Source: a virus
DNA length: 20,474 nucleotides
Strand: one strand, 5' to 3'
Virus record (IMG/VR): IMGVR_UViG_3300046532_004892
Span: 1 to 20,474 of that record
Below are positions 2,593-20,474 of the stretch, piece by piece; position 1 is the first letter of the stretch; every line of letters starts with the position of its first letter. The notes below the pieces were generated by a model that did no database searches, was not told where the DNA came from, and saw only the letters and a list, made by a program, of their open reading frames with translations. The translations under genes and the position numbers were made by a program.

Positions 2593-5500
2593 ATGGCATC
2601 ATTCAGAACATTCAGTGAAGTAGTAGCAACAATGCTAGAAAGATTAAGATTGGTTCAGCCAAATCTTGATACCAAACCAGGCACCGTGTCTAGAGATTTA
2701 TTTGTAGACATCCAGGCCGACCAGATAGACCGCCTGTACCGGACATTGGCGGCCATATCTGAAAAGCAGTCTTTGGCATCAACTTCCGGCGCAGATTTAG
2801 ATATGCTTGCATCGAACTTTGGAATAACAAGAACGACTGGAGCACTGGCATCCGGGGTTGTTATTTTTGCTACAAATTCAATTTCCACAGATATCTTGAT
2901 ACCATCTGGAACGCTAGTTCGGGCCAGAAATGGTGTTTCATTCTCTGTGATCGGAAATTACGCAATGACACCCTTTGAGAAGGGAAGGTTTGCAGCTACA
3001 GCAAATAGGCTTAGAAAGTCATTAAATATAGCCGGAATAAACAGTAAGTACGCGATCGAAGTTCCGGTCCAGGCGACTCGGCCGGGCACTGCCGGAAACG
3101 TCGCGTCCCTTCAGGTTATAGAATCAGGCCTTGGGTCCGGTGTAAGTCTGGGGTCTAATGTAAATGTAGTAAATCTAACGGCATTATTCGGCGGGTCCAA
3201 CGTAGAGGTTGACTCATCTTTCCGCGCAAGAATCTTATCTATATTTGGAGGCTCAAATACTGGAACCTCATCTGGCTATAGGAGCGCGGCATTTAGCACT
3301 TCTGGAGTTTTGGACGCAATAGTGGTCGAGCCCGGGAGCACACTTATGCTGAGAGATGGAACGGAGACAATTGAGCTGGACGGCGGAGAGAATAGAATTC
3401 TATCTTCTGGAACCGGAGGAAAGGTCGACATATACATCCTTGGGAAGGTGCTCGCAGAGGCATCAGAGTCTTTTATCTACACGGATTTATCCGGCACCGG
3501 CGGAGCTAGTGATGAGAGAAATGATGTAATCTTGGGTCAAGCAGGTCAGGACCCGACTCGTACATCGTCAGAGCGCAGAGTTTTGGCCTTTAAAAGTGGC
3601 AGCCTGCCGCTTCAGCCGGTTGACTCGATGACATCAGTTGTCGGTAGCCAATCTGGCGTATTTGCAGAAGAATCTATCGATGAAGAGGGGATTGCCTCCG
3701 GAAATTACAGGTTAGTAAAGGATGTTAATCCGGAAACTGGAGGTAGCCCATTTGGATTCGATTCAATTCATTTTATCTCCGGAGAAAAGGAGGTCTTGGG
3801 AGAGATAGTATCAAAGCCGAATATAAATAGCGCAGACGCATTACGGTACACTGACATGTCCAGTATGAGCAACATCTATCAGGACATTAGGATAACAGGA
3901 GAAAACTCATCCGTATCCATTGCCGGTAGAGATTTCGTTCAATTAAACCACTTTCCGGTTACAGCAGTTTCGTCGATAAAAAATAAGACTACCGGTGAGA
4001 CCTACATTCTAAAGCGTGGCATCGATGATTTAAGCTCAGGCCCCACGGATACTGGACTGGTAAAAATAGAGGGAAGAAGCCTTCCTGGCACATCGGATAT
4101 CTTAGAGTCTGCATATACATGGCGAAAATCATTTGATAAATATATTGATTATGATCATACTGATAATAATCGCATTCTGTTCGATAGTTCGAAGGCTGAT
4201 GTTATAGATTGGTCATTAAGCAATGGAATGCACGATGAGGCTTCGACAATAGAAAAGACAGAAGATGGTATTGAGTATATAGTTAGTACTGAATACCCAA
4301 TAAGCAGAATTGTCTCTGTTCACTCGCTAACATCAGCCACCGCCACCGTTGGCGAGGTCTCAAGAGATGGAGTTATGGGCTCCGTCGGAATGGACCTAGG
4401 CGGTGGATACTCGGATGTAAAAAATATCGAGTCAGTGGTTACATCAACCGGAATGGAGGTGTATAACACGAGAGCCTCAGACGGCGGATTTGCATCTAAT
4501 ATTGTATATCTGCCATCAGACTCTCCAGTTGTAGCCGGTGATGCAGTTACGGTGTCTTTTAATAAGATTGAGCTATTCGACATAGAGGGGGGGAATGGTG
4601 CATTTAGCTCAAATACAGTAACTCTCCCATCTGAAGATATACTATCCGAGGCGGGCGTGCTGACCCTGGTCGATGAATCGGAGCAGCTAAATTTGGAGAT
4701 ATTTGTAAAGTATGTTGCAGAAATCCAAAATATTATTGAGGCGGCATCTTTGGGGTCACTGCCGGTTATAGGCTCTGATGCTTCAAATTCTCTATTTTCT
4801 GCCGCAATAGAAGAAAACAATCAAGGCATACAGCCAATATTCTTTAAACCAACCTCCGGCGATATTTCCAGGTTCGGCCCGGCACAGCTTTCTGTTATAA
4901 TGGCCGCCGCTGGCTCTCCGGGAAAGATTAAAATCGCAGGCACTACGTTAACCAGGTTGGATCTGAATCTAACCGCAGGGCTGTCAATGGACGGACTCGA
5001 CATGTCTTTAAGGTCAGAACTAGAAAGTCTATTCGGAGGGTCAATCCCAGAGGGCGTCGGCGTTGCCAGGGTTGATTCAGCACAACTCTTATCTTCCGAT
5101 ATGATATTTAAATCAGAGTATGACATCGCCGGGTCGAAGCTACAGAGCGCAAAATATAGCCCCGGAAGCTCGGCCCCTGTATCATCCATGGAGGTATATG
5201 CCGTCATCCTCCCCTCGACTCCAAACAACTCCCTAATCGTAGCCTCATCAGGGGACGTGGTCCGGGTCAGTGTTCTTATTTACAACAATCAAGACACCGA
5301 AGAGTTATATTTTTCCGGATCCGGCGCCGCGATTACTAATAAAAGGTTTGGACGGATAAGCAGAGTGTCGGTATCATCCGGATTCAGAGCCTCTACTGGC
5401 TTGCTATCCGGGTCGGTCTCGATATATCCAATGAGCCAGCCTGAAAGTAATGACATATATTATGTAGACTATTCGTTTGTTGCCCCAAAAGAGGGAGAGA

Positions 5501-5922
5501 GAATAACTATATCTTATAATGTTAATGACGTAATATCGTCTACGACTAGTGCGGTCGAAAGTGTTAGGCCGATAACGGCAGACGTATTAGTGAAATCAGC
5601 AGAAGAGCTCTCTGTGGATGTGTCTGGAACAATAATGATCAATGAAAACTATATACTTAATGTAAATTCCATAATTGAGGATGTTGCAAATAATATAACA
5701 AATATATTAAGCTCCTCTCGGCTCGGCTCTGTGATTGATTATAGTGATCTAATATCATCAGCTGCCGCTGTAAAGGGGGTTGACTCGGTAGATATATCTA
5801 TGTTTAATGAGTCAGGACTCGGAGGTAGGAAGTCATTTATTAAGGCCTTAGATAATCAGTACATATCTCCCGGATCGGTACTTTTTGAGGCAGTTTTACG
5901 AGAAGAATTTAGGATAAGCTAA
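2593..5922 (+). CDS. Baseplate J-like (gp6/gp47-type) protein with a very long central insertion
   Basis: The protein has 1109 residues, against roughly 300-400 for P2/Mu-type J proteins and about 660 for T4 gp6. The N-terminal part fits the baseplate J pattern: the PGTVSRDLFVDIQADQ helix at about 29-44, ADLDMLASNFGI at about 74-85, a strand with IPSGTLVRA near 100, RPGTAGNV near 160, and the Phe-Arg-Ala-Arg-Ile stretch near 206 (SSFRARILSIFGG). The family's C-terminal part appears only at about 1007-1090 (LSVDVSGTIMI, a helix, DYSDLISSAAAVKGVDSVDI). Roughly 700 residues of Ser/Gly-rich beta-type sequence lie between. They include a module at 453-471 (HFPVTAVSSIKNKTTGETY) and an IDWS motif at 538-541 that both recur in the next gene. 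The product should form baseplate wedges with the gp25-like protein; the insertion probably projects outwards, which is inference. Confidence 0.85.
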   Translation: MASFRTFSEVVATMLERLRLVQPNLDTKPGTVSRDLFVDIQADQIDRLYRTLAAISEKQSLASTSGADLDMLASNFGITRTTGALASGVVIFATNSISTDILIPSGTLVRARNGVSFSVIGNYAMTPFEKGRFAATANRLRKSLNIAGINSKYAIEVPVQATRPGTAGNVASLQVIESGLGSGVSLGSNVNVVNLTALFGGSNVEVDSSFRARILSIFGGSNTGTSSGYRSAAFSTSGVLDAIVVEPGSTLMLRDGTETIELDGGENRILSSGTGGKVDIYILGKVLAEASESFIYTDLSGTGGASDERNDVILGQAGQDPTRTSSERRVLAFKSGSLPLQPVDSMTSVVGSQSGVFAEESIDEEGIASGNYRLVKDVNPETGGSPFGFDSIHFISGEKEVLGEIVSKPNINSADALRYTDMSSMSNIYQDIRITGENSSVSIAGRDFVQLNHFPVTAVSSIKNKTTGETYILKRGIDDLSSGPTDTGLVKIEGRSLPGTSDILESAYTWRKSFDKYIDYDHTDNNRILFDSSKADVIDWSLSNGMHDEASTIEKTEDGIEYIVSTEYPISRIVSVHSLTSATATVGEVSRDGVMGSVGMDLGGGYSDVKNIESVVTSTGMEVYNTRASDGGFASNIVYLPSDSPVVAGDAVTVSFNKIELFDIEGGNGAFSSNTVTLPSEDILSEAGVLTLVDESEQLNLEIFVKYVAEIQNIIEAASLGSLPVIGSDASNSLFSAAIEENNQGIQPIFFKPTSGDISRFGPAQLSVIMAAAGSPGKIKIAGTTLTRLDLNLTAGLSMDGLDMSLRSELESLFGGSIPEGVGVARVDSAQLLSSDMIFKSEYDIAGSKLQSAKYSPGSSAPVSSMEVYAVILPSTPNNSLIVASSGDVVRVSVLIYNNQDTEELYFSGSGAAITNKRFGRISRVSVSSGFRASTGLLSGSVSIYPMSQPESNDIYYVDYSFVAPKEGERITISYNVNDVISSTTSAVESVRPITADVLVKSAEELSVDVSGTIMINENYILNVNSIIEDVANNITNILSSSRLGSVIDYSDLISSAAAVKGVDSVDISMFNESGLGGRKSFIKALDNQYISPGSVLFEAVLREEFRIS
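5911..5914 (+). promoter_or_regulatory. Ribosome binding site for the 3481-residue gene
   Basis: AGGA lies inside the last codons of the J-like gene, nine bases before the ATG at 5924. With only one base between stop and start, ribosomes finishing the J-like gene probably reinitiate here. Confidence 0.55.
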
Positions 5923-5923
5923 A

Positions 5924-8900
5924 ATGCTATTAAGACCAACTCATTTCACGGTTACGTCCAGCACTGGATTGAAGATCGCGTTTACTGACAATGTATCTGA
6001 CAAAATTTCAGCTAGTAATTTTACTATAACATCTTTGGGTGGAAGTATAGACGATCTTGAAATCCTTAGTGTATCAGTAAAGGACAAGGCCGTAGAGATA
6101 AAAACAAGACCACAGGTTTCTGGGAACTTCTATCTTCTAAAGATGCTTGATACCGGGGATTCGCCATTCTCTTCTGAGCGTGGTGCCTCTTTGATAAACG
6201 ATGATAACTCAAGAGAGGTATTCTTCATAGGGACAAGCTCGCACAACCCGGTCCGCGACCGTATATTTGAAGAGGTCCCACACTTATATAGCATCGAAGA
6301 CACGCTGATAAAGGACATAGTAAGCTCTCAGGCCGATGAAATATATCGAGCCCAAAGGCACATTGGAGAGGTTCTGAGTGATAATTATATATCAGAAACC
6401 GTGACTAATGAGTTGAGAACCAGGGGTCCTGGCGCCACCGATAGGCTTGGAAACGAGGGGGCCTATAATGTGGATAGAGTGTCCTTAACTCCTCAGGGCT
6501 TCCCTCTGAAGTTTGGATCCGTTGAGCTTTCGACGCTCGGAGAGGCCAGAGAGAAGAGGATGCCCGGCGACGTTCCGATATCACTGAGAAGAATCATAGT
6601 AAGTGCCGATATCAGCGGCGGAACCACCGATGGAGAATTTGACGGATACCTTATTAGCTTGACAAATAAGAATGTTATTAAACTCCTATCTCTAAGGCTG
6701 ATCAAAGAGGACGATATTTATGATTGTAATAATGAAATAGGAACAGAATATAACATTGAAAGATATAAGTATTCAGTATTAAATAATAAATATGACAAGC
6801 AGCATTCTTTATCTTATCGGGAGCTAGAATCAAATCAGATTTTAATATCTGAGTTTGGGAATATAGATAAGCCGGTACCTGGAGATAAGCTTGTAATCTC
6901 TTATGCATTTAATGATTTTGGAATAGAGGTTTCAGAAGATTCGGTAAGTGTATTTAATGTCAAGCACATAAGAAAAGAGTCAATCCCTACTAACATTTCT
7001 AGGCTCTTCCTGTCTAATGCTCCGGTTGTCCTATCTAACAATGAAGCGGCCGAATTAGGTGGAGTTACTTTTTCTTACTCTTCCGGCGCCCTTGGGACGC
7101 CAGATGCATTCTTGAAGGAGCTGAAGTTTAATACGTCAAGACTCCCGATGTTAGAGGGCGAGTATTCAATAAATTATGAAACCGGAGAGGTAATTGTTGT
7201 CGGCGACGGCCTGTCCGGAACCGGGTCCAGTAGCATCGCCGCAGAGTACCACTATAGAGATGTATTTGAAAATAACTTAGATTATTATGTAGATGGTGGG
7301 GATGTTGTAGCGAGCAAGATTAGGAATCTCGGCGGCCAAGAAGTAACGATAGAATTCTCCTATGGGGCGGTCCTCGCAGAGGGAAGTGACTATCTAGCTC
7401 CATGCCACGAGGAGGTCACGGCGGAGCACGCAGAAAATAATTTCACATCTTCATTTTCTATAGAGACAAAGCATCAGCCAATAACTAATGTATTCAGAAT
7501 TGTGAATCAGACCACCGGAGAGATATACAAGAAGCTATATAATACTGATACGGAAATCCACTTTACGGGCAGAGCTCCACCAAGGTTCGACTCTAAAGTA
7601 TCAGAAATGGCAGAATTTCTAAAGATTGATGCCGAAAAAGTAGAGACGTTCGAAGAATTCGTCTCTCCTGCCTTCAAGGCTGTAGTTACATCTGGGGATT
7701 CAAATAGCAATATAAAGATAACGCCAGGCATCCCATCAGAACTAATAGATCAGAACTCAAAAGAGTACTTTATAAGAGGAGAGTCGGATTCAGATGATAT
7801 ACAGATTCAATTTTTTGGACAGCCAGACTCCGAAGGTCTGATAGGCTCCGTTGGAATATTAAACTCTATATCGTCCCCAATGGTTGGCTCTGATGTCATT
7901 ATTGGACCGAAGGTTATATCAATAGCTCTCGAGAATATAGGTGTTTTAAATAAAGAGCTGGACTCCATGGGTGTGTTCTTTAATTCATCATTATTCTTTT
8001 CGGCAGATGATATATTTTTAGAAGAAAAGTTCTTCCATCCGCTTCCATCGAGTTACGATATCAGTAAGGCATCAAGGCTGGGGTTTGTATCGTCAGTTTT
8101 GTCCGAACGAGGCGACAAGTTTTTTGAAAATCTATCCAGAATAACTCGCGTCGGCGATCACGTTGTTGATTACGCTCACGGAGTTATCTACCTTGGAGTC
8201 AGCAGTGGCCAGTCACTATTGGAACTTGGAACAGCCAAGTATAGTTGCTCAAAGATTATAACTAAAAATTCAAATATATTAAGTTCAGACCAGATTGCAA
8301 AGAAAAACAGGGCATCTGATTCTGTTAAAAATGCATCCTTGGTCTATGACGACTTTTCCGTAGAGGCCGGCAAGATATCCTTGTTAGATCTGGAGCCATC
8401 ATTCGAGTCTCCCGATAGTGGCGACACCTTTGACTCCTACGGCACGCAGGTTCCGACTGCAACCGTTCTTAGCGACTATACGGTCGCCCTAATGTCCGAT
8501 ATAAATCAGATAAATGGAATTTACTCCATACCATCAGTTGCAGGTTTCAGATTAGATAGCAAGTTTAAGGATGTGAGAGAGGAGGCCATGGTCGTACAGG
8601 TCTTAACCTCTCCCATTGCGAGTGGCGGCGGAAATATTTATAACGCCTCGCATATGAAGACTAATGCGAATGTGATTGATTTGAAGAAATATGATAGTCG
8701 TTACTTGATAGAGAAAGACGGCATTTACAGCATAACTATAAAAGATTCAAATATAGGGAGCCTCTTATCTGTAATTCTATCGAAGACCGGGGGCGAACTG
8801 TTCGACGAGAAGCTGAATGTAACTAAAATAGATGACATCGAGGTTGTCTTTTCTAATTCATTCGATGGAATGGCAACGGTTGGGATTAGGAGCGGTGGAA

Positions 8901-11900
8901 TAAATTCATCAATAGATAGCCTTGAGGATTTCCTTCTGGACTCCAATGGAGATAGGTTCGAGATAATTAGCTTTGACGACCTTACGTCGACCCTGGACGT
9001 CTCCTCACCGGCTGTGAACAATGTAGAGGCACCTCACCCAGCAATGGGCGCTGGAGCCAAGATTATCGTAAAGGCTACTGTAGATATATACGATGACAGA
9101 GTAGAGATATTAATCCCATCTGATGCCGCCGTGGCAAACGGAGATATGGTGGATATATCTTATATTAATGACTATATTCCGGAGCCTGGAACGGGCCTTA
9201 TGGTAGACTATAGGTATGGTAAAATATTTTTAGACTACTCGTACGTTGCCGATGATATTTATATATCATACGAGTATGGAGATAATCAGATTGATTGGTC
9301 CATATCCAATGCAATAGTAGAGGGCCAGGACTATTATGTATCATATAGGTACGGAGCGCTAAGAGACGCTTTGAGAAAGAATTTTGGAAACCTAACTGAT
9401 ATACCATTCTTTAAGGAGTTTTCTCTATCGACAGACCGCGAGCTATATAGGAGCGCCTTGCTGGGAACCCTGGAGGCATTTACCTCCGGCCCGACGGTGC
9501 CGGCATTTAAGTCACTAATAGAGTCATTCACGCTAATCGACCCGGAGATTACAGAGTCTCATTTTGGGAACTGGATTCTTGGCCGAGACTATTTATCCCC
9601 AGGTGCAGTTGAGTATGGCGGAGTATTAGACTTCTCCGAAGGCCGATTCGGGTCCGGCCTGATGATAAATGACGATAATATGGTCAAGATTCCATCTGAC
9701 TCAAACATATCCTTAGAGGAGGGTACCTTATCCGCGTGGATTCGCCCAGAATGGGCCGGGATAAATAATGATGCGACATTGACAATCGACTTGGACGGTA
9801 TCGGAGAGGATCGATTTTATTACAATACGACCACGAACCCGTTCAGTCTTGAAAATAAGTTTGAGTTATTTGAGATATCCAACGCCGTTGGAATTACGGA
9901 CTACTCCGGAGATGGTGTTTCTATATCAAACTACAAGATGATATATGATGCGGCGATGGCCGAGAAAATTTTAATTGGAGAGTTCGGGCTGAAAAAGACC
10001 CCAACGGCACTCGCTCACTTTGGCAATCTAAGGCTTGATGCGAGCGTTATGGTTGACACCTTTTCCCTACCAGACCCCACCGGGCATTCTGTATCGATAT
10101 CTGATCATATGTCTGATTCTGGTGCTAATTGTATGGCTGCAGTTTCTGTTTCTGATAACAATAAATCTTTACAGATCATGTTTAATGCCAAGCCGGTCAG
10201 AAATTCTGACGGAAGTATTTTAATATTTGAGACAAATGCTGACCACATAGACGCAGTAGAGTACCCACCGTACGAGGGTCCATATCCAGTTAGAGGATGT
10301 GTATGCTCTGTTCTTAATGTTATTGATAATCTTTTAGATTTTAGAAACAAAGATACACAAGTTATAAGAATCGAGTTGGACTATGAAGTTGATTTTTCAT
10401 ATTTTCTGAATCAACACTTTCTTATTGACGACCAACCGTCGGTATTTCGAATTGCAGATTCAAATGGTGGAATATATGAAGTATATGCATTTTTGGATCT
10501 TGCAGGCAGGACGATAAGTAGCGGGATTCCAACGAAAGTTGGAGGATTTATAGTCGAAAGAATCCCCGGTAATATGCAGCACTTGAGTGCCGCAGGATCA
10601 GATGCACTAAATAGCTACTTGCCAGTTGGACAGCTAAGAGTATTGGCACAGTCCGTGTCCATACCAGTTGGCAGCAGCATCTCGTCTAAGGAGATTTTTA
10701 ATTTCGAGGATATGGATTATCTTATAGACTGGAGCTCCGGTCATGTCCGGATGAGAGTGGACCATAGCCCATCGGATAATGTTGTTTCGATATCACTAAA
10801 GACGCACCTTAACTCGAGCAAGAGAGTTAGGGTTCTTTACTCTGATCTAATGTCACATGACGCATCATCGTTTGGATATGGCATATCCATATCGGCTCCC
10901 GACAGCAAGTGTCAGACTACGCTTAATATAGCTAAATATAATTACTCCATAGAGAATAGGCTCAGCTTGGAAGATGTATATATCGGGAAGACTGCAAGAA
11001 ACCCCGCCCGTATGCCATTTTCTATAAATAAAGACGACTTCCCGCTCGTATCCTCTGGGCTTCCCCATAATGCGGATATTGACGAAGGAGTGTTCATCGG
11101 CTTTGATGAGACTTGCAAGTCCCCGATGGCAGACGACATTGGTCAGTGGGTTATTAGAAGTCGAATAGATAAAAACGTATTAGTGCCAATTGGAGCCACC
11201 CCAGTATATGATGATTTCTCTCTTGGCTTCGCCGTGCCCCCCGCCGAACTATCTTCATTCTTTGCAGCCGGTTTGACCAAGTACATAGATGTCTTTGGAG
11301 TCCATGTTTTTGCTACAAGCTCCGCTCCAAATGAGAAAGTATTATATGTAGCAAATATTTTGGCTCAGTTTTTGGATAATGATGAGGACGGTTTGCCCGA
11401 TAATGAGCTCGTCCTGCAGAGCCTGACGGAGAGAAATTCATATATAATAATATCAGAAGATAAAGATGATTTCGACTCACTGGAGTCAAGGATATGGGAA
11501 GATAAGGAGTTTAAGACCGGAACCGTCATATACTCAAGCAACGTTTTGGAAGGTGGAATCGACCAAACGATAAAACTCGTATGGAGCTTGATTGGTGATG
11601 CCGGATACTCAAATGCGTATCCGGACAAGTTCGGCCTTTCTGTGGGCTCGGAACTTGCAACTGCCATGAACACTGCACGCGGAGGATACTACCCGGTAAT
11701 CCCTGCTGTATATCCGATATCATCGTGGTATCATAATGAGGATGCTGGTTGCGACTTTGAGTGCCAAATTTCTAAATATTTATATTGGGGAATATCATCT
11801 ATTCTGGGCGAGTATAGTTCGAGAGGGGAGCTGATCGCGGCGGAGTGGGAGATCGAAAGCAAGAACCAACTCATGACTGTCGATCCGGTCCTGTATTCTC

Positions 11901-14900
11901 TGACTACTGACTCGAGCTTCGGGCTTCCATCAATCATCCCAGATGGAAACTATAAGGTGGATAGGGCCGTTCATTCGTTTCAAAATATATTTGAAGAAGT
12001 TTATTCAAATTATGGAATATCCGGAAAGGTTACGACAAATGGTGAATTCTCATCAGTGCTGAGATCCAGAAGGAGCGAGGATGAAAATGGATGCCGAATC
12101 GGCACAGTATGCTCCTCAGAGCTGAGGTACTGCGGAGACGGCCTGATAGAGGAGTCCGGATGGAGAAACATCAAGGAGACCCAATCTGAGCTAATAAACG
12201 TCATAACTGGCGGGTCATCACTGGAATCAGTCCCATGGGCGAAGGTGGGCGAGTTTTCCACGAGCGAATCTGGTGGAATATATAGAATGAGCTCCGGGCC
12301 AAAGTCTAACGCTAACAAATTTATTTACTCATCCCTCCCATGCTCAGGCGGGCAATACTCTACCTCCGTATATTTCAGGGTAACACATGTTGGCCCCGGG
12401 GGCGGATCAGAATTTGACGGCGCAATCTCCGGAGCCTTTACGGGAGCAGTTCCAGTTGAAATTAATGATGGGTCGATATCTATCAAGATAGCCCTCGCCG
12501 TAGCGAATTCCGGAACGCCACTTGCGATGATTATGGATGCATCGGATGACTCTATTCTGGATATAGTATATTTGAACTGGATGTCGAATGAGTTTATTGA
12601 GCTAAGGGTAGATAAGGATCTGGATAAAAATATAACAATAAGCTCGGATGGAACAATTCTATCTAGACTATCAGACGCGGACTTCGAAGAGGCTGTCTTT
12701 GATGATTGTGATTTATTGTCGGAACCATATATTGCAATTAGGTGGCTTGATTTACAGCTATCTGAATCCCCCACTGGAAGCGACTCTGACTCTATGGATC
12801 TGTCTCTAATCTCATTCGAAGGCATATACGAAGAGAAGATAAGCACCCTGGAGAGTAACGATATATTTATAAATACTGACTCAAAGGTGTTATTCTCGTT
12901 CATCGCCGGAAAGCCAGATAGTAATGTAGATGGATACATCGATGGATATGCCGATGGATATGCCGATGGATATATAGACGGATATATAGACGGATACATC
13001 GGCGGACCGGATTACGATGTGGATGAAATTTATCTGAACTCAGATAAGTTTAGATACATATACGATACCGGAGAGGATGAGCGTCATGGAAGAATCTCCT
13101 TATTCAAAGATGGCAAGGGCTTTTTGAACTTCAGAATAAAGGAGAGCATGTCGTCTTCCGAGTCGGAAGTTTTTAATATAGCTACAAATATTAAAAACTT
13201 CAAGCCAGGAGAGCTGCATCATGTTGCGGCAAGCTGGAAGCTAAATACGCTAAATGAGCAGGATGAGATGCACCTATTCCTGGATGGCCTGGAGGCTCCA
13301 AACCTATATAGATTTGGTGGCTCGGCGAAGATAAGGATAAATGATAAGTTTTCAGACATAGGGCAAGAGGTTCTGCATGGGTTCGCCGTAGATAATGTTA
13401 TATTTTCAGATATATACACTGACGGAACCGTATCTGCCGGGTCTAATTCTTTTTATTCCAATGACGCAGAGTTCACTCAGTCGATGATTGGAAGGTCCGT
13501 CATTATAAAGTCTTCCGTCATGGCCCCGACAATGGTTGGGGATGAGCTAATCATAGGAAGCGTGGTTGACGCCGGTCGGGTAACAATAGTATCTGGATCA
13601 AACTTGAATCCTGTGGTATTTAATACGTCAGCATCAGATATTTCCTTTTGCTTTGCCCCAATCGCCGGAATCAAGAATAAGATCAGTACTGATCTTAAAA
13701 ATGAGAAGTTTTCAGTCTATAGAAAAACATGTGAAGAAGAAATCATTGAGCTAGGTGGCGTGCTTTACTCGATAGATGGTGGAGTTATAAACATAATTTC
13801 TGGAGATGAAATAATTGAGCCATCCTTCCGAGCGAATGTATCTAGCAGGGTAATAGAATTTATTGGAAGAAACTCAGATTGCGAAAGCATGGATACAATC
13901 GAGTATTCGGATCTAAATATTCACATTAGAACATATGGGCTAACTCTCGGAAGGTTAAAGGAGGGAGTCTGGCTGTCTGGATCCTCTTATTACTCAGATT
14001 CTGGATTTGAAGCAGAAAAGTATAGCGGTAGGAGTATTCTAAAGACTCACTCGTCCACTCCAACAAATCTGAAAGACGTATCGATGAGGAGGGTCGTTTT
14101 GGATCGGGTAATTCCTATGATCAGCGACTATGAAGTGGGAGTTTTATCCTCACTTGTGGGATTTGAGATTTCATTGGATTCTAAGTTTGGATATAATCTA
14201 TTGACTTCCGAGTCTGGAAGAATATCAACTCAAAATCTAGGTCGAAATTTAACTCTAAGATTTGATTCAGATAATGTAATCTTCTGCGAAGACCGAGATG
14301 GGTATATCGATGGCTATGGGGCCGGCTTCAGCGAAAGCTTTATAGATATATTCGGAGACACAGTAGACGGAACCGGAGTTGAGAGGGTTATTTTAAGGGA
14401 AAATGGAAGCATAGAGTTATCAAAAATATTTTTAAATGTTTCAAAGGTTGTCGGGTCCCTAACTGTTGCGGATATTGATTACGAGCCATGCGTTATAGAG
14501 ATTGTCGAGACGAATCTGGTTACCGAATCAGTTAACGGCGGGGAAGCTGCTGAGTTTGAGTCCTATAAAAATGGATTATTTAACATAGCAATAGCCGGGA
14601 CAAGCGGATCCATACCATTCGAGCTACATCCTGGAAAGTATGAGCTTGATTACCCAACTAAGCTTAGTATTTTTATCCCAACTGTCGGAAGTGATTCATT
14701 CATAGGGACTGATATCAATAGGGAGGGTCAGTTCGGAGGAGTGATCGACGAATTTAAGATAATTTCTGAAATGTCAGAAGACACTCGCCCGGTTGAAACC
14801 GGCGGCGCGGGAGTTAGGAGCATTACTGGAGAGTTTAATGACCCAAACCGGTCATGTCCTGATCGCCAAACATTGGCGCTTATTCATTTTGAAAACCCAA

Positions 14901-16369
14901 TTGACATGCAGCGCAGAAAACTACGATCAAAAGAGTTTTTAAACCAAGAAACAAACTTTAAATTTAGATTAAATGTAGAGCAAATCATGACTCTCTTGGT
15001 TCATATAAATAATGAAGGAGAGTTCGTCAAAAATATGGTCAGAATGGGATTCTCAGAGCATATATCTGCGGCAACTTACATTGAGGCTCATGCGGCTGCA
15101 GGCGGACCAATATTTAATGATGCCACATACTATCCAGGAGTGGGGAGCAGTGGCATCTCTGGGGCGAGTGTGAATTCGACCTTTGGCGAGTCCGCCAGGT
15201 TTGTAAACTCACCACCGTTGGTCTTGAATAATAAAGATTCGTACTTTAGAAAAGATAAGGGCTCAATTGAATTTTGGGTCAGCCCCGCGATGGATACGCA
15301 GTCCGACGACGAAGACCGATATTACGTAGATATCGCGTCATCAGCTATGGTTAGAATATCTGTCACCTCGCCCGGGGCAATTAGCCTTCCATCTTCTGCT
15401 TCAAAGATTATAGGCATAAGGCTTATGAGCAGGACGAAGGAATTTTCAGAATTCTACACCCAAGAGGAGTCTGATGCTATACTTTTCGATGAAATACACA
15501 GAAGTCATGTATCCGGAAGGCTGGCTGGTGGCACGGGAACTGACAAGGACTTCTCCGTAGGTGCAGTCTTATCTCCGAACGGAAGAGAAATAGCCCTAAG
15601 GGAGGCTCTGCCCGGTGGCGATGTGGATGTAATCGTTTCATACGTCCCACTGGAGTTTTCTGGAGATAGGATTTCAATATATAAAAGCAAATTTGGTCAG
15701 ATTGTATTCTCCATAACTGCAAGTGGAATAGAAAATACAGTGAAGACAAGTGTAAATTGGACAAAAAATACTTGGCACAGAGTGATTTGTACGTATAAGG
15801 CCAACTCTGACCGCGACAGTATGACGATGTTTGTCGATGGAGTAGAGGGCGGAACGATAACTTATGGAACTAATTTAACGTATAATAATGGCATCACGTA
15901 TGGACAGCAGTTGTCCGATATGGGAACCATTGTATCAAATAGTTATAAGATTAAAATTGCTGATGACTTTAGGACAATAGGGATCGGAGGAGATATTCTG
16001 GGTGGCAGGACCGCCTATTCCAGAATCGACAATATCAGGTTTAGCAGGGTGGCAAGGCACATTCCAAGAGATATTTATGGTAATTATATAGATATAAATT
16101 ACTCAGAAAACAAAGAGTCTATATACCCGGTAATAGAGGATGATATGACAACTGCTATTATAAACTTTACAACCGTAATGACTGATAATGATAATTTCGC
16201 GTCAATAATTGATCCGGAAAGAGGCATTTACAACTTTGATATAGAAATCTTAGATGATCTAGGTAGAATAACTGATGAAAAAACAGAAGATTTAATAGTC
16301 GAACTGGTTAATAGGCTAAAGCCCGCTCACTCAAACGCCTTGGTAAAGTTTCCAAGAAATCATTGCTGA
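5924..16369 (+). CDS. Giant 3481-residue multidomain baseplate/tail protein, tail protein I-like at its ends
   Basis: An uninterrupted frame of 10.4 kb starts one base after the J-like stop. Residues 1-75 look like an Ig-like beta domain. Residues about 108-180 (VRDRIFEEVPHLYSIEDTLI, then a long helix) and the end, 3446-3478 (GIYNFDIEILDDLGRI, then LVNRLKPAHSNALVKF), resemble the two ends of gpI-type tail proteins, whose last lines often carry a Lys-Pro-Ala-His motif. Together with its place after J, this suggests gpI with about 3200 residues inserted. In order, the interior shows: a module shared with the J protein (517-535); repeated beta motifs with Val-Asp-Tyr or Ile-Asp-Trp (about 411, 745, 1091, 1598); LamG-like parts near 1242, 2310-2500 and 3087-3385; an embedded domain at 1775-2012; a Cys cluster just after it; and a six-copy DGY repeat at 2336-2359. 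No signal peptide is visible. A role in host contact is inferred from the lectin-like modules. Confidence 0.85.
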   Translation: MLLRPTHFTVTSSTGLKIAFTDNVSDKISASNFTITSLGGSIDDLEILSVSVKDKAVEIKTRPQVSGNFYLLKMLDTGDSPFSSERGASLINDDNSREVFFIGTSSHNPVRDRIFEEVPHLYSIEDTLIKDIVSSQADEIYRAQRHIGEVLSDNYISETVTNELRTRGPGATDRLGNEGAYNVDRVSLTPQGFPLKFGSVELSTLGEAREKRMPGDVPISLRRIIVSADISGGTTDGEFDGYLISLTNKNVIKLLSLRLIKEDDIYDCNNEIGTEYNIERYKYSVLNNKYDKQHSLSYRELESNQILISEFGNIDKPVPGDKLVISYAFNDFGIEVSEDSVSVFNVKHIRKESIPTNISRLFLSNAPVVLSNNEAAELGGVTFSYSSGALGTPDAFLKELKFNTSRLPMLEGEYSINYETGEVIVVGDGLSGTGSSSIAAEYHYRDVFENNLDYYVDGGDVVASKIRNLGGQEVTIEFSYGAVLAEGSDYLAPCHEEVTAEHAENNFTSSFSIETKHQPITNVFRIVNQTTGEIYKKLYNTDTEIHFTGRAPPRFDSKVSEMAEFLKIDAEKVETFEEFVSPAFKAVVTSGDSNSNIKITPGIPSELIDQNSKEYFIRGESDSDDIQIQFFGQPDSEGLIGSVGILNSISSPMVGSDVIIGPKVISIALENIGVLNKELDSMGVFFNSSLFFSADDIFLEEKFFHPLPSSYDISKASRLGFVSSVLSERGDKFFENLSRITRVGDHVVDYAHGVIYLGVSSGQSLLELGTAKYSCSKIITKNSNILSSDQIAKKNRASDSVKNASLVYDDFSVEAGKISLLDLEPSFESPDSGDTFDSYGTQVPTATVLSDYTVALMSDINQINGIYSIPSVAGFRLDSKFKDVREEAMVVQVLTSPIASGGGNIYNASHMKTNANVIDLKKYDSRYLIEKDGIYSITIKDSNIGSLLSVILSKTGGELFDEKLNVTKIDDIEVVFSNSFDGMATVGIRSGGINSSIDSLEDFLLDSNGDRFEIISFDDLTSTLDVSSPAVNNVEAPHPAMGAGAKIIVKATVDIYDDRVEILIPSDAAVANGDMVDISYINDYIPEPGTGLMVDYRYGKIFLDYSYVADDIYISYEYGDNQIDWSISNAIVEGQDYYVSYRYGALRDALRKNFGNLTDIPFFKEFSLSTDRELYRSALLGTLEAFTSGPTVPAFKSLIESFTLIDPEITESHFGNWILGRDYLSPGAVEYGGVLDFSEGRFGSGLMINDDNMVKIPSDSNISLEEGTLSAWIRPEWAGINNDATLTIDLDGIGEDRFYYNTTTNPFSLENKFELFEISNAVGITDYSGDGVSISNYKMIYDAAMAEKILIGEFGLKKTPTALAHFGNLRLDASVMVDTFSLPDPTGHSVSISDHMSDSGANCMAAVSVSDNNKSLQIMFNAKPVRNSDGSILIFETNADHIDAVEYPPYEGPYPVRGCVCSVLNVIDNLLDFRNKDTQVIRIELDYEVDFSYFLNQHFLIDDQPSVFRIADSNGGIYEVYAFLDLAGRTISSGIPTKVGGFIVERIPGNMQHLSAAGSDALNSYLPVGQLRVLAQSVSIPVGSSISSKEIFNFEDMDYLIDWSSGHVRMRVDHSPSDNVVSISLKTHLNSSKRVRVLYSDLMSHDASSFGYGISISAPDSKCQTTLNIAKYNYSIENRLSLEDVYIGKTARNPARMPFSINKDDFPLVSSGLPHNADIDEGVFIGFDETCKSPMADDIGQWVIRSRIDKNVLVPIGATPVYDDFSLGFAVPPAELSSFFAAGLTKYIDVFGVHVFATSSAPNEKVLYVANILAQFLDNDEDGLPDNELVLQSLTERNSYIIISEDKDDFDSLESRIWEDKEFKTGTVIYSSNVLEGGIDQTIKLVWSLIGDAGYSNAYPDKFGLSVGSELATAMNTARGGYYPVIPAVYPISSWYHNEDAGCDFECQISKYLYWGISSILGEYSSRGELIAAEWEIESKNQLMTVDPVLYSLTTDSSFGLPSIIPDGNYKVDRAVHSFQNIFEEVYSNYGISGKVTTNGEFSSVLRSRRSEDENGCRIGTVCSSELRYCGDGLIEESGWRNIKETQSELINVITGGSSLESVPWAKVGEFSTSESGGIYRMSSGPKSNANKFIYSSLPCSGGQYSTSVYFRVTHVGPGGGSEFDGAISGAFTGAVPVEINDGSISIKIALAVANSGTPLAMIMDASDDSILDIVYLNWMSNEFIELRVDKDLDKNITISSDGTILSRLSDADFEEAVFDDCDLLSEPYIAIRWLDLQLSESPTGSDSDSMDLSLISFEGIYEEKISTLESNDIFINTDSKVLFSFIAGKPDSNVDGYIDGYADGYADGYIDGYIDGYIGGPDYDVDEIYLNSDKFRYIYDTGEDERHGRISLFKDGKGFLNFRIKESMSSSESEVFNIATNIKNFKPGELHHVAASWKLNTLNEQDEMHLFLDGLEAPNLYRFGGSAKIRINDKFSDIGQEVLHGFAVDNVIFSDIYTDGTVSAGSNSFYSNDAEFTQSMIGRSVIIKSSVMAPTMVGDELIIGSVVDAGRVTIVSGSNLNPVVFNTSASDISFCFAPIAGIKNKISTDLKNEKFSVYRKTCEEEIIELGGVLYSIDGGVINIISGDEIIEPSFRANVSSRVIEFIGRNSDCESMDTIEYSDLNIHIRTYGLTLGRLKEGVWLSGSSYYSDSGFEAEKYSGRSILKTHSSTPTNLKDVSMRRVVLDRVIPMISDYEVGVLSSLVGFEISLDSKFGYNLLTSESGRISTQNLGRNLTLRFDSDNVIFCEDRDGYIDGYGAGFSESFIDIFGDTVDGTGVERVILRENGSIELSKIFLNVSKVVGSLTVADIDYEPCVIEIVETNLVTESVNGGEAAEFESYKNGLFNIAIAGTSGSIPFELHPGKYELDYPTKLSIFIPTVGSDSFIGTDINREGQFGGVIDEFKIISEMSEDTRPVETGGAGVRSITGEFNDPNRSCPDRQTLALIHFENPIDMQRRKLRSKEFLNQETNFKFRLNVEQIMTLLVHINNEGEFVKNMVRMGFSEHISAATYIEAHAAAGGPIFNDATYYPGVGSSGISGASVNSTFGESARFVNSPPLVLNNKDSYFRKDKGSIEFWVSPAMDTQSDDEDRYYVDIASSAMVRISVTSPGAISLPSSASKIIGIRLMSRTKEFSEFYTQEESDAILFDEIHRSHVSGRLAGGTGTDKDFSVGAVLSPNGREIALREALPGGDVDVIVSYVPLEFSGDRISIYKSKFGQIVFSITASGIENTVKTSVNWTKNTWHRVICTYKANSDRDSMTMFVDGVEGGTITYGTNLTYNNGITYGQQLSDMGTIVSNSYKIKIADDFRTIGIGGDILGGRTAYSRIDNIRFSRVARHIPRDIYGNYIDINYSENKESIYPVIEDDMTTAIINFTTVMTDNDNFASIIDPERGIYNFDIEILDDLGRITDEKTEDLIVELVNRLKPAHSNALVKFPRNHC
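6254..6463 (+). other. N-terminal gpI-like segment of the giant protein
   Basis: Residues about 111-180 begin with RIFEEVPHLYSIEDTLIKDI and continue as a long charged helix to NELRTRGPGATDRLG. A helical start of this kind, before any beta modules, is what I would expect of the wedge-binding end of a tail protein I relative. The match is by general pattern and gene order, so it is tentative. Confidence 0.35.
7472..7528 (+). other. Module shared with the J-like protein
   Basis: Residues 517-535 read HQPITNVFRIVNQTTGEIY. The J-like protein has HFPVTAVSSIKNKTTGETY at residues 453-471 (3949-4005). Eleven of the 19 positions are identical without gaps, including the TTGE core, and conservative changes fill several others. 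This looks like a common beta module used in both proteins. Confidence 0.6.
9560..10210 (+). other. First LamG/concanavalin-like region (tentative)
   Basis: At about residues 1242-1275 the sequence FGSGLMINDDNMVKIPSD followed by LEEGTLSAWIRPEW matches the opening strands of LamG-type jelly-roll domains (FG-hydrophobic ... G(S/T)hxxWhxP). The expected closing half (WHHVA...LYVDG) is not obvious directly downstream, so the domain may be diverged or interrupted. Boundaries are approximate. Confidence 0.45.
11246..11959 (+). other. Embedded domain resembling a secreted metalloprotein-like family
   Basis: Residues about 1775-2012 read unlike the surrounding beta modules. They contain KYIDVFGVHVFAT, VLYVANILAQFLDNDEDGLP, GYSNAYPDKFG, ATAMNTARGGYY, SSWYHNEDAGCDFECQISKY and LYSLTTDSSFGLP. 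From memory these landmarks recur in the same order in stand-alone secreted hypothetical proteins of bacteria and some eukaryotes, where a Glu/His-containing helix after the calcium-like loop looks metal-binding. Here that helix reads TIKLVWSLIGDAGY and lacks His and Glu. D1818-N-D-E-D-G is a plausible calcium loop. Function unknown; family resemblance is recollection, not a search result. Confidence 0.5.
12866..13420 (+). other. Second LamG-like region, carrying the DGY repeat
   Basis: Residues about 2315-2499 run from KVLFSFIAGKP through the DGY tandem repeat, then RISLFKDGKGFLNFRI and GELHHVAASWKLN (2429-2441), DEMHLFLDGLEAP and a closing AVDNVIFSD strand. The order short strand, GxxHHVAxxW, LFLDG, then DNVxF is the usual second half of LamG-type domains. 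The DGY repeat sits where a surface loop between strands would be expected. Confidence 0.6.
12929..13000 (+). repeat. Six tandem 12-base repeats encoding Asp-Gly-Tyr-x
   Basis: Six consecutive in-frame 12-base units with consensus GAYGGATAYRYH encode DGYI, DGYA, DGYA, DGYI, DGYI, DGYI (residues 2336-2359), preceded by Val and followed by Gly-Gly. Units differ at silent and fourth-residue positions, so the array is not a fresh duplication. A shorter copy of the motif occurs at 14297-14317 in the same gene (DGYIDGY), and a related one at 19436-19459 in the next gene (DGYAVDGY). Confidence 0.9.
15110..16080 (+). other. Third LamG-like region
   Basis: Residues about 3063-3385 show both halves of a LamG-type jelly roll: FGESARFVNSPPLVL then KDKGSIEFWVSP (3087-3120), and much later NTWHRVICTYKAN (W3284) and MTMFVDGVEGG, ending with SRIDNIRFSRVARHIP. 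The halves are separated by about 160 residues, longer than usual, so an extra strand pair or inserted subdomain is likely (about 3125-3265). LamG-like folds commonly bind sugars; no binding residue can be named here. Confidence 0.65.
16298..16357 (+). other. C-terminal KPAH motif of the giant protein
   Basis: Residues about 3459-3478 contain LVNRLKPAHSNALVKF, with K3466-P-A-H. A helix ending in Lys-Pro-Ala-His followed by a short beta strand is a common C-terminus of tail protein I and YmfQ/DUF2313-type baseplate proteins. It lies 13 residues before the stop, as it would in a normal-length member. Confidence 0.5.
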
Positions 16370-16423: not shown

Positions 16424-19400
16424 ATGGGAAATATGAAAAAAGCCAATGTCCCGAGGATTAACTTCTTTGACGGGCAGCGGGTTACGGAGAGGGATTTAGA
16501 CGAAGAACAGATCCATCATAGGTCTCTGGTATCTGAGTTAAATATTGACTTCCATGGCAGCGGCGTGGTACTAGATCGCCCTTTCGGGGAGAGAATTCTT
16601 CTGGACACACGTGCCCCGGGAGCTAATTCTACTGACGCAAACCCATCTAAATTCAAAGTAGAGTCCGGCGGCTTTGACGGGTCCGCTGTGTATTTGGACC
16701 GACAACCCGCGGATTCTGTCTACGGCGAGAGGATAGAGATCGAGGCCATAGGCCTTGAGCTTGGCGGCAGACACGCCGCAAAAGTATTAATTTTAGGAAA
16801 AAGATTCAACGGCGTTAACGACTCCGGAATTTTAACATCTGAAATTTTAGAATTCAAAAATAATAAAGTTCAAATAACAGAAAACTACTACACCAGCATT
16901 TCTGGAGTTATTTTTAATAACTTTTCCGGAGGTACCGGAAGGACGGAATCTCTGTCATATGTAGATAGCCTGAATACAATTTCTGACATAGATGGAGGAT
17001 TCGTCTTTCGCGAGGCCGGTCCTCTAAAGGTCTTTGCCAGAACCGCGTCTGCATTTCAGACCGAATCTCCAAACGCTGGACTCTCTGGATTTATAACTTC
17101 AGACCCAGAAATTACAATAAAAGATGAAATAATAGGTTTATTGGGGTCTGAGAACTCAATATCTGATCTTTACTTTGAGCTGGAATCTGGAAGCAAGGTA
17201 TCATTCGCCGCCGGCTCATCGCAGAGCCCAATGTACGGTCAAAAGTTTCTTTCTGAGACGAATAATCTCCAGAGAGTAGACTTGTTGATATCGGTAGAGG
17301 AGGACTCCAGTGCGGATCCTGGCCTTGAATATGAGTTCTCTGGAGATATAGTTGTATCTATTCACAAGCTGTCAACGGAGACGAAGTGCTCCTCGGACCA
17401 TGTTCCGGACAATTTTATAGATTTCGATCCAGATCCTGAGCCGGTCGCAGAGAAGGCTTATAGCCATGAGGACCTGAAGGATCTCGGCTACGAGTTGGAC
17501 GGAACCCCTCAAGTAGTTAGCTTTAGCTTCTCAGACATGCTCATCGCCGATCCAAATCTGGGTCCGTCGATGGAGGTCGATAAGTATTATGTGATTCTGG
17601 TCTCCAGAAGAGGAGATAACCGAACTGGCGCTATTGTTTTGGAAAAAGGTTATGACACAGTATCTAGAAAAGAAGATAATGGCCAAGAGCTGTCTGTAGC
17701 GGAGCGATTCGGCAGGCAGCAAACAAGGTATGTCGAGTACGACCCAAAAAATAGAGTTTATATTGATGATGTAACTGCATCCTTGTGGTTCGTTGTTCAC
17801 TCCGACTCAATAGAAGTCACGAGCGGCTCGGCGTATGCAAATGATGGAACCCCGATTACCTTGCCGAAGACCGATAAGTATGTTGGCGGAACGCAGATAT
17901 CAAAATTTGAGAGAAACATATCTATAAGTGATGTATCTGAGGGCGGAATAAACTACCTGACTATATCGCGGGAAGACAAATTCTCAGACCCGAAAACTCA
18001 CCCGAGAACTGGTAATCTGGTTTATTCTAAAATAGAAGATTATCCATCATTTAGCATAATAAAAGATTTAGAAAATATAGATATTAATAATCCAAGTATA
18101 TTTCTTGGAAAAATTTCAGATAAAAATATTCGAGACGCAAACATATTTTCTGGAGAGATTGATCTTCCCGGAATGATAGAGGCCGATGAGGTAATCATAA
18201 TAAATCCAGATAGCGGCCTGGTGACGGCCAATTTGGTAGGACAGGTTATTACTCCGGACACGGACTGCGAGTGCACATCTCGTTATAGAATAATTGAGGC
18301 AACCTGCGAGGAGATGCTGACTGGTGATTTAGATGGTGACAATGAAATTACATCAAATGATATAATAGAACTTCTAAATGTAGTTGGAAACACGATAAAT
18401 TCAGAAACAACGGAAAGGAGAATTCTCGGAGGAGAATTCAGCATCATAGACTTCATCAAGTCGGATCTAAATGCTGACGGTTCAGTTGATGGTACCGATA
18501 TTGAGTTGATGGAAGATGCGATAGATGGGTATGTGAACTTTTCTGCGGCTGAAACCTTTAAGGTATTAAGGCTGCGCTTGGAGAATATCTTTGAATCATC
18601 TGACTATCCAGAGGTATTTTCAGACTCCACGTCATCCGGGGATACTGTATCGGGTGATAATGTTATTTCATTCTCTGTAACCTCCGACTTAGAGGCCCTG
18701 GCGATAAGGATCGGGGACAAGATTGAGATTCCATCGGACCAAGATGACGCCGGAGAGTTTCTGATTATATCCAAGGCGGTAGATACGTCCGGAGTCGGTG
18801 TAACAATCACTGTATCTGATATGGACGGAGCCGACGTTGAGTTTGTTGGCTCATCATCGTTTGATATTACAATCATTAGTGGAACTGAGGTAAATGTTTT
18901 TGCCGATAATATAAACCTAATGAGCGTTCCGTTTTCCAAGAAGAATTACTCTATATCAAGTATCGGTGCCCCATTTGAGGAAAGATTTGTCGATGTCTGC
19001 GATCTAAGAAGATTCGTTGAGTCGACATTCATAGAGGAGCACATCGAGACATGCATTTGTCAAGAGCCAAAATGTATTGACGGCTCCCTGTGCGCACCGC
19101 AGTTTAAGACTCAGAAAGTATTGGCAAATGACTTATTTATTCCAAATGGAGAGATCTACTCGGAGCCGGGAGTTCCATATCATGGCGATTTTGAATATTC
19201 CAATGTGACGATCCCGCTCCCGCCTGGAAGTATCGAGGGATGTAGTATCGACTTATATACTAACTTTATAAAGTCGGACGGAGGGAAGTGCTTTACGGCA
19301 TCTGGATATCCGGCCATGAAATTCTCGGATGGAACATATGTTGGCTGCGAGGACTCTGCAACAAATACCGATATTGCAAAGGGTCGAGTTAAGTTCTCAA

Positions 19401-20474
19401 AGGCTATCGCCAGCCTTCATGTAGATGCGCTGGTAGATGGGTACGCAGTTGACGGATATGCTGATGAGGTCGAGGCCACAACAGCTACGGAGCTTATAGG
19501 GGAAGACCTGACAGAGCTGTCATACATATACTTCTCTGACTGGGCCGAAGCCCCTGGGAATGCATCCTCGTCTGTCTTAGCTATAGATAAGGATGATGGA
19601 ACGAAATCAACTCGTGGAGTAAAATTTGATATTACAACAGTGGAACTGTCACCAGAGAAGTATGGAAGAATAGAATACCCATCTTCCGAGCCGGACATGT
19701 CTGGTGACTTCATATTAGACTTCCGAGCAGCCCGGAGCGTATGGGAGAGTGACCTGTTCTTTACCGGAAAGGCCTCCTTTTTCTCTACAGTTAATATAGT
19801 AAATGGCGATGGAACATACGCCGAGTTAAAGGTAGGCTGGAGAGAAGCAGCTGGAGCTGGCCTCGGAGTATTTTTTAGTGGTGAAATTTTTAACGCAGAA
19901 GGGCACCTAATATATGATTTTGATTACTTTGTAGATTACTCAGAAAAGCTCGGCGAAGATATGCTATTCCGGGTTCGTAGAATTAATGAAGTAGTAACCG
20001 CATATTATTTTGATGATAGCTCAATCGATGTCTTAGCAAATCCAACCGGGCAATATGTTAGGATTGGAGAGAATCCAGACCTTCATCCCGGAACTGGGGA
20101 CGCTACGGTAGAGTTTGAGATTGCAAATTATGACACGCCTACTGCAAGTGTAAATTTCGCAGTTAGATTACATGAAGTAATATTGCAATCAGACCTAGAA
20201 TCGGACGGCCTGCTTGGAAGTTCGGTTATTATCGGAAGAGATGCCCTTCTGAGCGCAAGCAGAGTTACGGCCACATTCCCGCTCAACCTTACGTCTAAGA
20301 CAAATATTGTATCTGCGTCTTTAAAGATTACGGCATATCAGCCTATTTCGTCATACGACAAGTTTAATATAACTCCGTATAATATAATGAATGCTGATAA
20401 TTTAGGTGCATTATTTGATTACCCCCTAGAGAGCAACGACTCCTTCGTATCGACATTCGTTCCGGGAGAGGTAG
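16424..20474 (+). CDS. Large multidomain structural protein with NFFDGQ motif and dockerin-like EF-hands (3' partial)
   Basis: The frame stays open for 1350 codons and leaves the window without a stop. It starts with MGNMKKANVPRINFFDGQRV and then TERDLDEEQIHHR. From memory, an 'NFFDGQ-hT-xxDL-xxEQ' opening, followed by a His-Gly-x-Gly-Val-like stretch (here HGSGVV, residues 44-49), is frequent in proteins encoded near contractile-tail and injection-system baseplates, where it seems to mark an attachment domain. Residues 50-600 are mostly beta-type. Residues 635-704 hold two calcium-type loops spaced 46 residues apart, as in a dockerin. Cysteines cluster before this (CECTSRYRIIEATC) and at about 875-890 (CICQEPKC, SLCAPQ). 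Residues about 1090-1215 look concanavalin-like (LFRVRRINEVVTAYYFDD), and a further beta region with SLKITAYQP follows near 1305. It probably encodes a baseplate-attached appendage; this is inferred from context. Confidence 0.85.
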   Translation, partial: MGNMKKANVPRINFFDGQRVTERDLDEEQIHHRSLVSELNIDFHGSGVVLDRPFGERILLDTRAPGANSTDANPSKFKVESGGFDGSAVYLDRQPADSVYGERIEIEAIGLELGGRHAAKVLILGKRFNGVNDSGILTSEILEFKNNKVQITENYYTSISGVIFNNFSGGTGRTESLSYVDSLNTISDIDGGFVFREAGPLKVFARTASAFQTESPNAGLSGFITSDPEITIKDEIIGLLGSENSISDLYFELESGSKVSFAAGSSQSPMYGQKFLSETNNLQRVDLLISVEEDSSADPGLEYEFSGDIVVSIHKLSTETKCSSDHVPDNFIDFDPDPEPVAEKAYSHEDLKDLGYELDGTPQVVSFSFSDMLIADPNLGPSMEVDKYYVILVSRRGDNRTGAIVLEKGYDTVSRKEDNGQELSVAERFGRQQTRYVEYDPKNRVYIDDVTASLWFVVHSDSIEVTSGSAYANDGTPITLPKTDKYVGGTQISKFERNISISDVSEGGINYLTISREDKFSDPKTHPRTGNLVYSKIEDYPSFSIIKDLENIDINNPSIFLGKISDKNIRDANIFSGEIDLPGMIEADEVIIINPDSGLVTANLVGQVITPDTDCECTSRYRIIEATCEEMLTGDLDGDNEITSNDIIELLNVVGNTINSETTERRILGGEFSIIDFIKSDLNADGSVDGTDIELMEDAIDGYVNFSAAETFKVLRLRLENIFESSDYPEVFSDSTSSGDTVSGDNVISFSVTSDLEALAIRIGDKIEIPSDQDDAGEFLIISKAVDTSGVGVTITVSDMDGADVEFVGSSSFDITIISGTEVNVFADNINLMSVPFSKKNYSISSIGAPFEERFVDVCDLRRFVESTFIEEHIETCICQEPKCIDGSLCAPQFKTQKVLANDLFIPNGEIYSEPGVPYHGDFEYSNVTIPLPPGSIEGCSIDLYTNFIKSDGGKCFTASGYPAMKFSDGTYVGCEDSATNTDIAKGRVKFSKAIASLHVDALVDGYAVDGYADEVEATTATELIGEDLTELSYIYFSDWAEAPGNASSSVLAIDKDDGTKSTRGVKFDITTVELSPEKYGRIEYPSSEPDMSGDFILDFRAARSVWESDLFFTGKASFFSTVNIVNGDGTYAELKVGWREAAGAGLGVFFSGEIFNAEGHLIYDFDYFVDYSEKLGEDMLFRVRRINEVVTAYYFDDSSIDVLANPTGQYVRIGENPDLHPGTGDATVEFEIANYDTPTASVNFAVRLHEVILQSDLESDGLLGSSVIIGRDALLSASRVTATFPLNLTSKTNIVSASLKITAYQPISSYDKFNITPYNIMNADNLGALFDYPLESNDSFVSTFVPGEV
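18326..18535 (+). other. Dockerin-like pair of calcium-binding loops
   Basis: Residues 635-646 read DLDGDNEITSND and residues 681-692 read DLNADGSVDGTD. Both match the dockerin/EF-hand loop pattern D-x-(D/N)-x-D-(G/N)-x-(hydrophobic)-x-x-x-D, and each is followed by a short helix (IIELLNVV, IELMEDAI). Dockerin repeats are usually about 22 residues with a short linker; the 46-residue spacing here leaves a longer linker. Calcium-dependent folding or docking is expected of the family; no cohesin partner is visible in this window. Confidence 0.75.

Follow-up and report, generated by a model that had tools for sequence, protein, structure and literature searches.

Dockerins are known mainly as the plugs of cohesins, into which they normally fit to build multi-enzyme complexes. 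Their calcium loops carry Asp or Asn at positions 1, 3, and 5 and Asp at position 12, and we take loop positions 10-11 to be those that recognize the cohesin. PMC12484212 describes classical dockerins as a loop-helix-helix-loop-helix arrangement, gives this ligand pattern in part, and describes the symmetry of the two halves of type I dockerins. Phage proteins with dockerin names are already listed in UniProt/BFVD. Our search of the open literature, with most subscription papers lying outside it, found, among the papers listed, no account of a phage structural protein that contains a dockerin-type module; PMC5967307 likens a region of a phage tail protein to a cellulosomal carbohydrate-binding module entry, PMC3558961 gives blastp similarity between a phage gene 40 and dockerin type I proteins, and the mention of dockerins in PMC9377139 concerns bacterial genomes. 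Here, we analyze a stretch of 20,474 bases (the window), which is the entire viral record IMGVR_UViG_3300046532_004892 and probably a genome fragment, and within it an open reading frame (ORF) that is open at the end of the record (16424-20474, + strand, as are all features below; 1350 amino acids seen). Residues 635-704 of the encoded protein are a dockerin-type pair of EF-hand loops, predicted from the sequence and a structural model to bind calcium, and on balance, with modest confidence, we read this dockerin-fold module as a rigid, calcium-dependent internal joint of the virion that works without a cohesin.

The module spans residues 630-706 (18311-18541), with the Pfam family Dockerin_1 (PF00404) matching at residues 634-698 and the predicted structure matching dockerins. 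Predicted calcium loop 1 (residues 635-646, 18326-18361; DLDGDNEITSND) has Asp at positions 1, 3, 5, and 12, and predicted calcium loop 2 (residues 681-692, 18464-18499; DLNADGSVDGTD) has Asp at positions 1, 5, 9, and 12 and Asn at position 3, i.e., both loops show the full ligand pattern of PF00404. An earlier reading made from the letters by themselves (the sequence-only reading) had placed two dockerin-like calcium loops with following helices at 18326-18535, which corresponds exactly to residues 635-704, 18326 being the first base of Asp635; Pfam, the AlphaFold2 model, and the relatives described below all agree with it. The loop starts are 46 residues apart, a spacing that the same reading had described as longer than the classic one, and which proved to be both real and constant, since all 23 aligned rows span 58 residues from the start of loop 1 to the end of loop 2. 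Dockerin_1 scored 25.2 bits in the search of the record (E = 3.5e-7) and 24.8 bits in a 311-amino-acid fragment, with a cut-off of 22.9. When a profile of the module was searched by sequence, calcium carriers, troponin C, and calmodulin-like chains were also among its matches, at E-values weaker than that of the best dockerin; of the 23 aligned rows, up to 10 are matched by generic EF-hand families.

AlphaFold2, applied to residues 560-870 with a 23-row alignment, gave a model with a predicted local distance difference test score (pLDDT) of 86.4 and a predicted template modeling score (pTM) of 0.77, with the module at a pLDDT of 89-93 per ten-residue block. This model runs from a long predicted strand that enters the module (residues 621-632, 18284-18319) through loop 1 to helix 1 (residues 644-650, 18353-18373), which lies in the least conserved segment of the module, then through an extended linker (residues 656-680, 18389-18463) with two predicted helices (residues 661-668 and 674-680) and a GNTINSETTER-like stretch, and on through loop 2 to the last predicted module helix (residues 690-700, 18491-18523), which lies within the most conserved segment (residues 693-706), and to a long predicted strand that leaves the module (residues 711-721, 18554-18586). 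The prediction thus has the loop-helix-helix-loop-helix order of dockerins with one additional linker helix, and the two flanking strands presumably pair with each other. Using VIA-align, we observe that ranks 1-9 are all solved dockerins (Z 8.5 to 7.4), headed by 8x39_A (Z 8.5, 2.1 Å over 65 residues) and including 5lxv_B (Z 8.1, 2.6 Å over 63 residues, 32% identity); dockerins also hold Foldseek ranks 4-6 (E 0.02-0.04, probability 0.99-1.00). Structure prediction had been proposed as a check on the sequence-only reading, and it returned paired loop-helix units that match these solved dockerins. Calmodulin-type EF-hands are absent from the best 50 VIA-align matches, an absence that does not by itself exclude them.

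Our survey of relatives drew on 31 public records in total, with contigs of up to 395 kb. Patterns lying outside the module (NF[FY]DGQ and PYHGDFE), when run on viral contigs, led to 26 loci, and both loops are present in all 25 loci that reach the module; the 26th (L036) ends before it, and the first loop of one locus (L025), missed by the regular expression for the loops, is evident in the alignment. Patterns lying inside the module matched 300 stretches on viral contigs, among which 30 loci were confirmed, holding 25 distinct loop pairs. Removal of three exact duplicates left an alignment of 24 rows including the window, 23 of them with the module, and removal of one further row of >90% identity left the 22 rows used for conservation. 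In the 23 module-bearing rows, Asp is invariant at the first and twelfth positions of each loop and at position 9 of loop 2, and variation of these Asp positions in homologues, which had been named as something that would speak against the loops, is therefore not seen at positions 1 and 12. Position 3 is Asp or Asn in 21 of 23 rows in loop 1 and in 23 of 23 in loop 2, and the same counts hold for position 5 (two rows with Ser in loop 1), where Asp itself occurs in 21 of 23 rows per loop and the remainder are Ser (loop 1) or Asn (loop 2). Among the 30 loci found from inside the module, positions 1 and 12 are Asp in both loops in 30/30, and position 5 is Asp in 28/30 (loop 1) and 27/30 (loop 2); because the expression itself required the loop 2 Asp and took loop 1 from 46 residues away, the informative part of this result is the letters of loop 1 and the fact that all 30 match.

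Seven ligand Asp residues have a mean conservation of 0.97, compared with 0.67 for the 83 other Asp in residues 8-1000, 17 of which are also invariant. Mean entropy is 1.79 for helix 1 and 1.30 for loop 1 and drops to 0.85 for loop 2 and 0.67 for residues 693-706 (1.39 for residues 8-1000), and seven non-ligand residues of the linker and last helix are invariant in 22 of 22 rows (G655, G670, E697, A699, G702, N705, and F706). The module occurs once per record, at a similar place and in frames of similar length (1498-1777 amino acids from stop to stop in the 26 of 30 closed at both ends), and the protein that carries it is conserved along its length. Dockerin_1 matches 22 of the 23 aligned rows at E<=1. 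We also searched 19 viral records, made up of the window, 17 of the 31 records from relatives, and one that has baseplate J only, and at the thresholds used 17 of these 19 contain a Dockerin_1 match, one each except for G012; of the two without a match, G011 carries the loops (L073) and G010 is a short record fetched for baseplate J. A second dockerin in G012, in a 318-amino-acid frame, was considered and rejected, as the match covers 12 residues at 12.8 bits and was taken as chance.

At the sensitivity used, a search of 50,697 annotated phage records gave no relative for the whole ORF, the window module, or 1324 amino acids of a divergent relative (L031), and the module of another relative (L026), searched in the same records at E<=10, has three weak matches, of which the two strongest (E 0.01 and 0.09) lie in human-faecal scaffolds that carry no annotation. 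Searches of bacterial genome contigs gave 87 stretches matching either of two patterns, the NFFDGQ motif among them, and a further 55 pattern stretches, with 0 confirmed by tblastn. NCBIfam has no family for the five proteins searched, and PHROGs has none for the window protein and weak, scattered matches for its relatives.

A search of the rest of the genome for a cohesin partner, which the sequence-only reading had suggested, came back empty: the Pfam cohesin family PF00963 has 0 matches in the 19 viral records (E<=1 in 11, E<=10 in 12), with the same profile matching in 2 of 14 control genomes. The near-symmetric dual cohesin-binding face of type I dockerins is likewise absent from the module. 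Its two halves share 2-11 of 22 residues, with a mean identity of 27%, and an identical pair at positions 10-11 occurs in 0 of 23 rows; in the printed part of the dockerin 4fl4_A, a single reference of which we have a fragment, the halves are identical at 11 of 16 positions. Since the halves are this dissimilar, the symmetric type I face has not been kept.

The protein itself would be a virion protein, probably of the baseplate, because its gene follows those for a sheath initiator and a baseplate J-like protein, with the gene of a giant LamG protein in between; the loops lie in the middle of the protein, as the sequence-only reading had placed them. We propose that the module lies as a dockerin-fold insertion between the two predicted strands, that calcium in its two complete loops would staple or brace it, and that loop 2 and the last helix may pack against a conserved partner, either in the same chain or in a neighboring subunit, this contact taking the place of plugging into a cohesin. 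The second half of the module is conserved and continues directly into the strand that follows, which suggests that it packs against a fixed partner, and because no matching cohesin socket was found we regard an internal joint as the most likely role. The earlier suggestion that such loops could hold baseplate appendages together is partly supported: the protein with the predicted dockerin fold is encoded next to baseplate genes, and an internal joint within the baseplate is plausible. As a tentative extension, possible in our view and short of probable, a lineage of large phages may have adapted the dockerin plug as a permanent calcium-dependent baseplate joint that mates with a virion protein other than a cohesin and has a longer linker and a single-sided interface. 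If true, this would be a cohesin-free use of the dockerin fold within a virus particle; a fixed, single-copy, asymmetric phage dockerin without a cohesin would represent a natural case of the fold with another partner, would offer a possible new orthogonal binding pair, and would give a lead on the calcium bracing of large-phage baseplates.

Several observations weigh against this proposal. In the full-length protein Dockerin_1 reaches 21.9 bits, below its cut-off of 22.9, and it exceeds the cut-off in only 9 of the 19 records. The Z-scores of about 8 are near the level that VIA-align commonly gives to models without a clear match, although the top rows belong to one family, and Foldseek alone has no match at E<=0.001 and places other folds at ranks 1-3. 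The set of ligand Asp omits Asp637 (position 3), which was counted among the other Asp and is Asp in 10 and Asn in 10 of 22 rows, and with Asp637 included the ligand mean is about 0.91. Entropy over the whole module (1.24) is barely below that of the protein, and the linker is average at 1.34. A cohesin that has diverged beyond the reach of the Pfam profile would escape our search, and most of the 19 records are fragments. We also infer, rather than observe, calcium binding, the baseplate location, the interface in the conserved segment, and the partner.

The long flanking strands of the model, which suggest a domain insertion, would also suit a module that has no binding partner of its own and whose loops form a calcium-stabilized fold that holds this insertion together. 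The ligand Asp are among the best-kept residues, and extracellular proteins are often stabilized by calcium. We judge this explanation unlikely, if worth keeping in mind, as the invariant non-ligand residues of the linker and last helix suggest more than loop chemistry, although packing within the chain would also explain them.

That two complete calcium loops are kept in the relatives would also be expected if calcium acted as an environmental trigger, i.e., if the baseplate changed state once the module filled with calcium near the host, and PMC6115969 describes calcium-dependent baseplate activation in lactococcal phage p2. The same source states that adsorption of p2-like phages is the same whether or not calcium is present, and the present data show no specific sign of a switch; we regard this suggestion of the sequence-only reading as improbable. 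Cohesins on the host surface could instead be the socket, with the phage anchoring on a cohesin-displaying cell, in keeping with the dockerin fold of the modeled module and with the non-cellulosomal cohesins of diverse bacteria and archaea described in PMC9012536. This is very improbable in our estimation, as the module is placed mid-protein, in a chain conserved along its length, rather than in a variable tip, and both the symmetric face and shared residues at positions 10-11 are missing from it. A chance resemblance, in which two Asp-rich loops only look like a dockerin domain and which might be read into the full-length Pfam score slightly below the cut-off and into the five relatives' records at <15 bits and the sixth, loop-bearing, without a match, is hardly credible and is largely refuted by the predicted fold with its structural matches to dockerins and by the fixed spacing and ligands in the relatives.

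A beta-barrel region follows the module (residues 725-823, 18596-18892), with middling structural matches (Z about 6-7.3) to the T5 distal tail protein, a gene transfer agent (GTA) virion protein, and ATP synthase barrels. Cysteines are invariant beside the module in 23 of 23 rows (Cys615 and Cys617 just before the entering strand and Cys628 inside it), and a later cluster at residues 859, 877, 884, and 890 is invariant in 10 of 10 rows; a metal site or disulphides are possible. At the N-terminus, an NFFDGQ..TE..LD.EQ motif (16460-16510) is largely kept in the relatives, an NFFDG-like form being found in 27 of the 30 module-bearing frames.

The genes preceding the dockerin-bearing gene begin with a 653-amino-acid ORF without a credible family (96-2057), followed by a contractile sheath initiator/gp25-like protein (2152-2583; phrog_2669 E 7.7e-13), whose Pfam score of 31.3 bits is slightly below the cut-off of 32.9 and whose presence suggests a contractile tail for this uncultured phage lineage. 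A baseplate J-like protein (2593-5922, E 9.4e-25) and a giant protein of 3481 amino acids with a LamG-like domain and DGY repeats (5924-16369) complete the series. The baseplate J protein matches Bacillus phage G with 31.6% identity across 37% of its length, and a probable terminase in the record behind L003, a Pfam match below the cut-off, has 23-26% identity to cultured phages among the best 25 of 174 matches; given how distant both are, no host was assigned. Within the giant gene, a 12-base tandem repeat (12929-13001) codes for DGY-x repeats, and DGY clusters also occur in the giant ORFs of relatives (L014-L039), with 4-16 DGY per protein among the matches listed, these having been preselected for at least four DGY. 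A 254-amino-acid piece of the giant protein (11273-12034) carries a DNDEDGxPDN-like loop and is present in 3 of the 26 related loci, not all of which span the whole giant gene (at 74% in L014 and L019 and at 39% in L039); a plasmid search with this piece gave no match, and the window copy has no Pfam match. Directly downstream of the dockerin-bearing gene, two relatives have a run of glycosyltransferase genes (L019:14606-21562; L028:14967-24023), which is possibly for tail glycosylation. In L019, 6 of 8 downstream ORFs scanned match glycosyltransferase families (E<=0.1; two below cut-offs) and are followed by a hexapeptide-repeat protein, and in L028, 8 of 8 match such families at E<=0.001 (one below the cut-off).

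Comparison with described systems shows that the module shares with type I cellulosomal dockerins (PF00404) the two calcium loops, each closed by an Asp at position 12, the loop-helix units, and the overall fold. It differs from them in its length, which is greater by about 12 residues (65 residues for 53 profile positions), in having one more predicted helix and halves that are only 27% identical, and in lying mid-protein in a virus, with no cohesin found in the 19 records. Structural matches in BFVD include two phage proteins, A0A6J5RS54 ("Dockerin domain-containing protein") and A0A8S5NQH0 ("Dockerin type 1"), both compared by name and structural match. A0A6J5RS54, from an uncultured Caudovirales phage, is likewise a long phage protein (1332 amino acids), matches the model at E 1.8e-4 and TMq 0.38, and is possibly a true relative; A0A8S5NQH0, from Myoviridae sp. 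ctagO6, has 391 amino acids.

Calcium sites in two other phage proteins are of a different kind. PMC6115969 reports calcium in the baseplate of lactococcal phage p2, as predicted here, whereas the protein there is Dit and the calcium site is another one. PMC4022735 describes an "EF-hand-like" calcium site in the phage lysin LysGH15, which belongs to an enzyme domain rather than to a dockerin-type pair encoded among baseplate genes.

For the N-terminal half, the comparison is with the DUF4815 protein of Staphylococcus phage phi812 (9euf_0, 1152 amino acids). The model of this half (residues 8-600, pLDDT 78) contains a beta-sandwich (about residues 205-462, 17036-17809) that resembles a domain of this phi812 baseplate protein (9euj_G, Z 15.0, 3.1 Å over 160 residues, with the alignment extending to residue 572), and which also has a Z of 12.4-12.7 to a mycobacteriophage central fibre, an algal-virus capsid chain, and clostridial Cwp84. 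Searched by sequence against the PDB, the N-terminal half has no match, and hhalign and the DUF4815 profile detect no sequence similarity between the two proteins; the shared beta-sandwich is a common fold without sequence support. Membership in DUF4815 (PF16075) was rejected: the window lacks any match at E<=10, and 7 relatives' records have just four weak matches (<=13 bits, cut-off 30), none at the dockerin-bearing frame. Judged by eye, the NFFDGQ motif recalls the start of the phi812 protein. The phi812 DUF4815 gene, like the gene in the window, lies behind baseplate J, with its C-terminal part being the fourth coding sequence (CDS) after baseplate J and the preceding CDS, judged from its length, probably being its N-terminal part.
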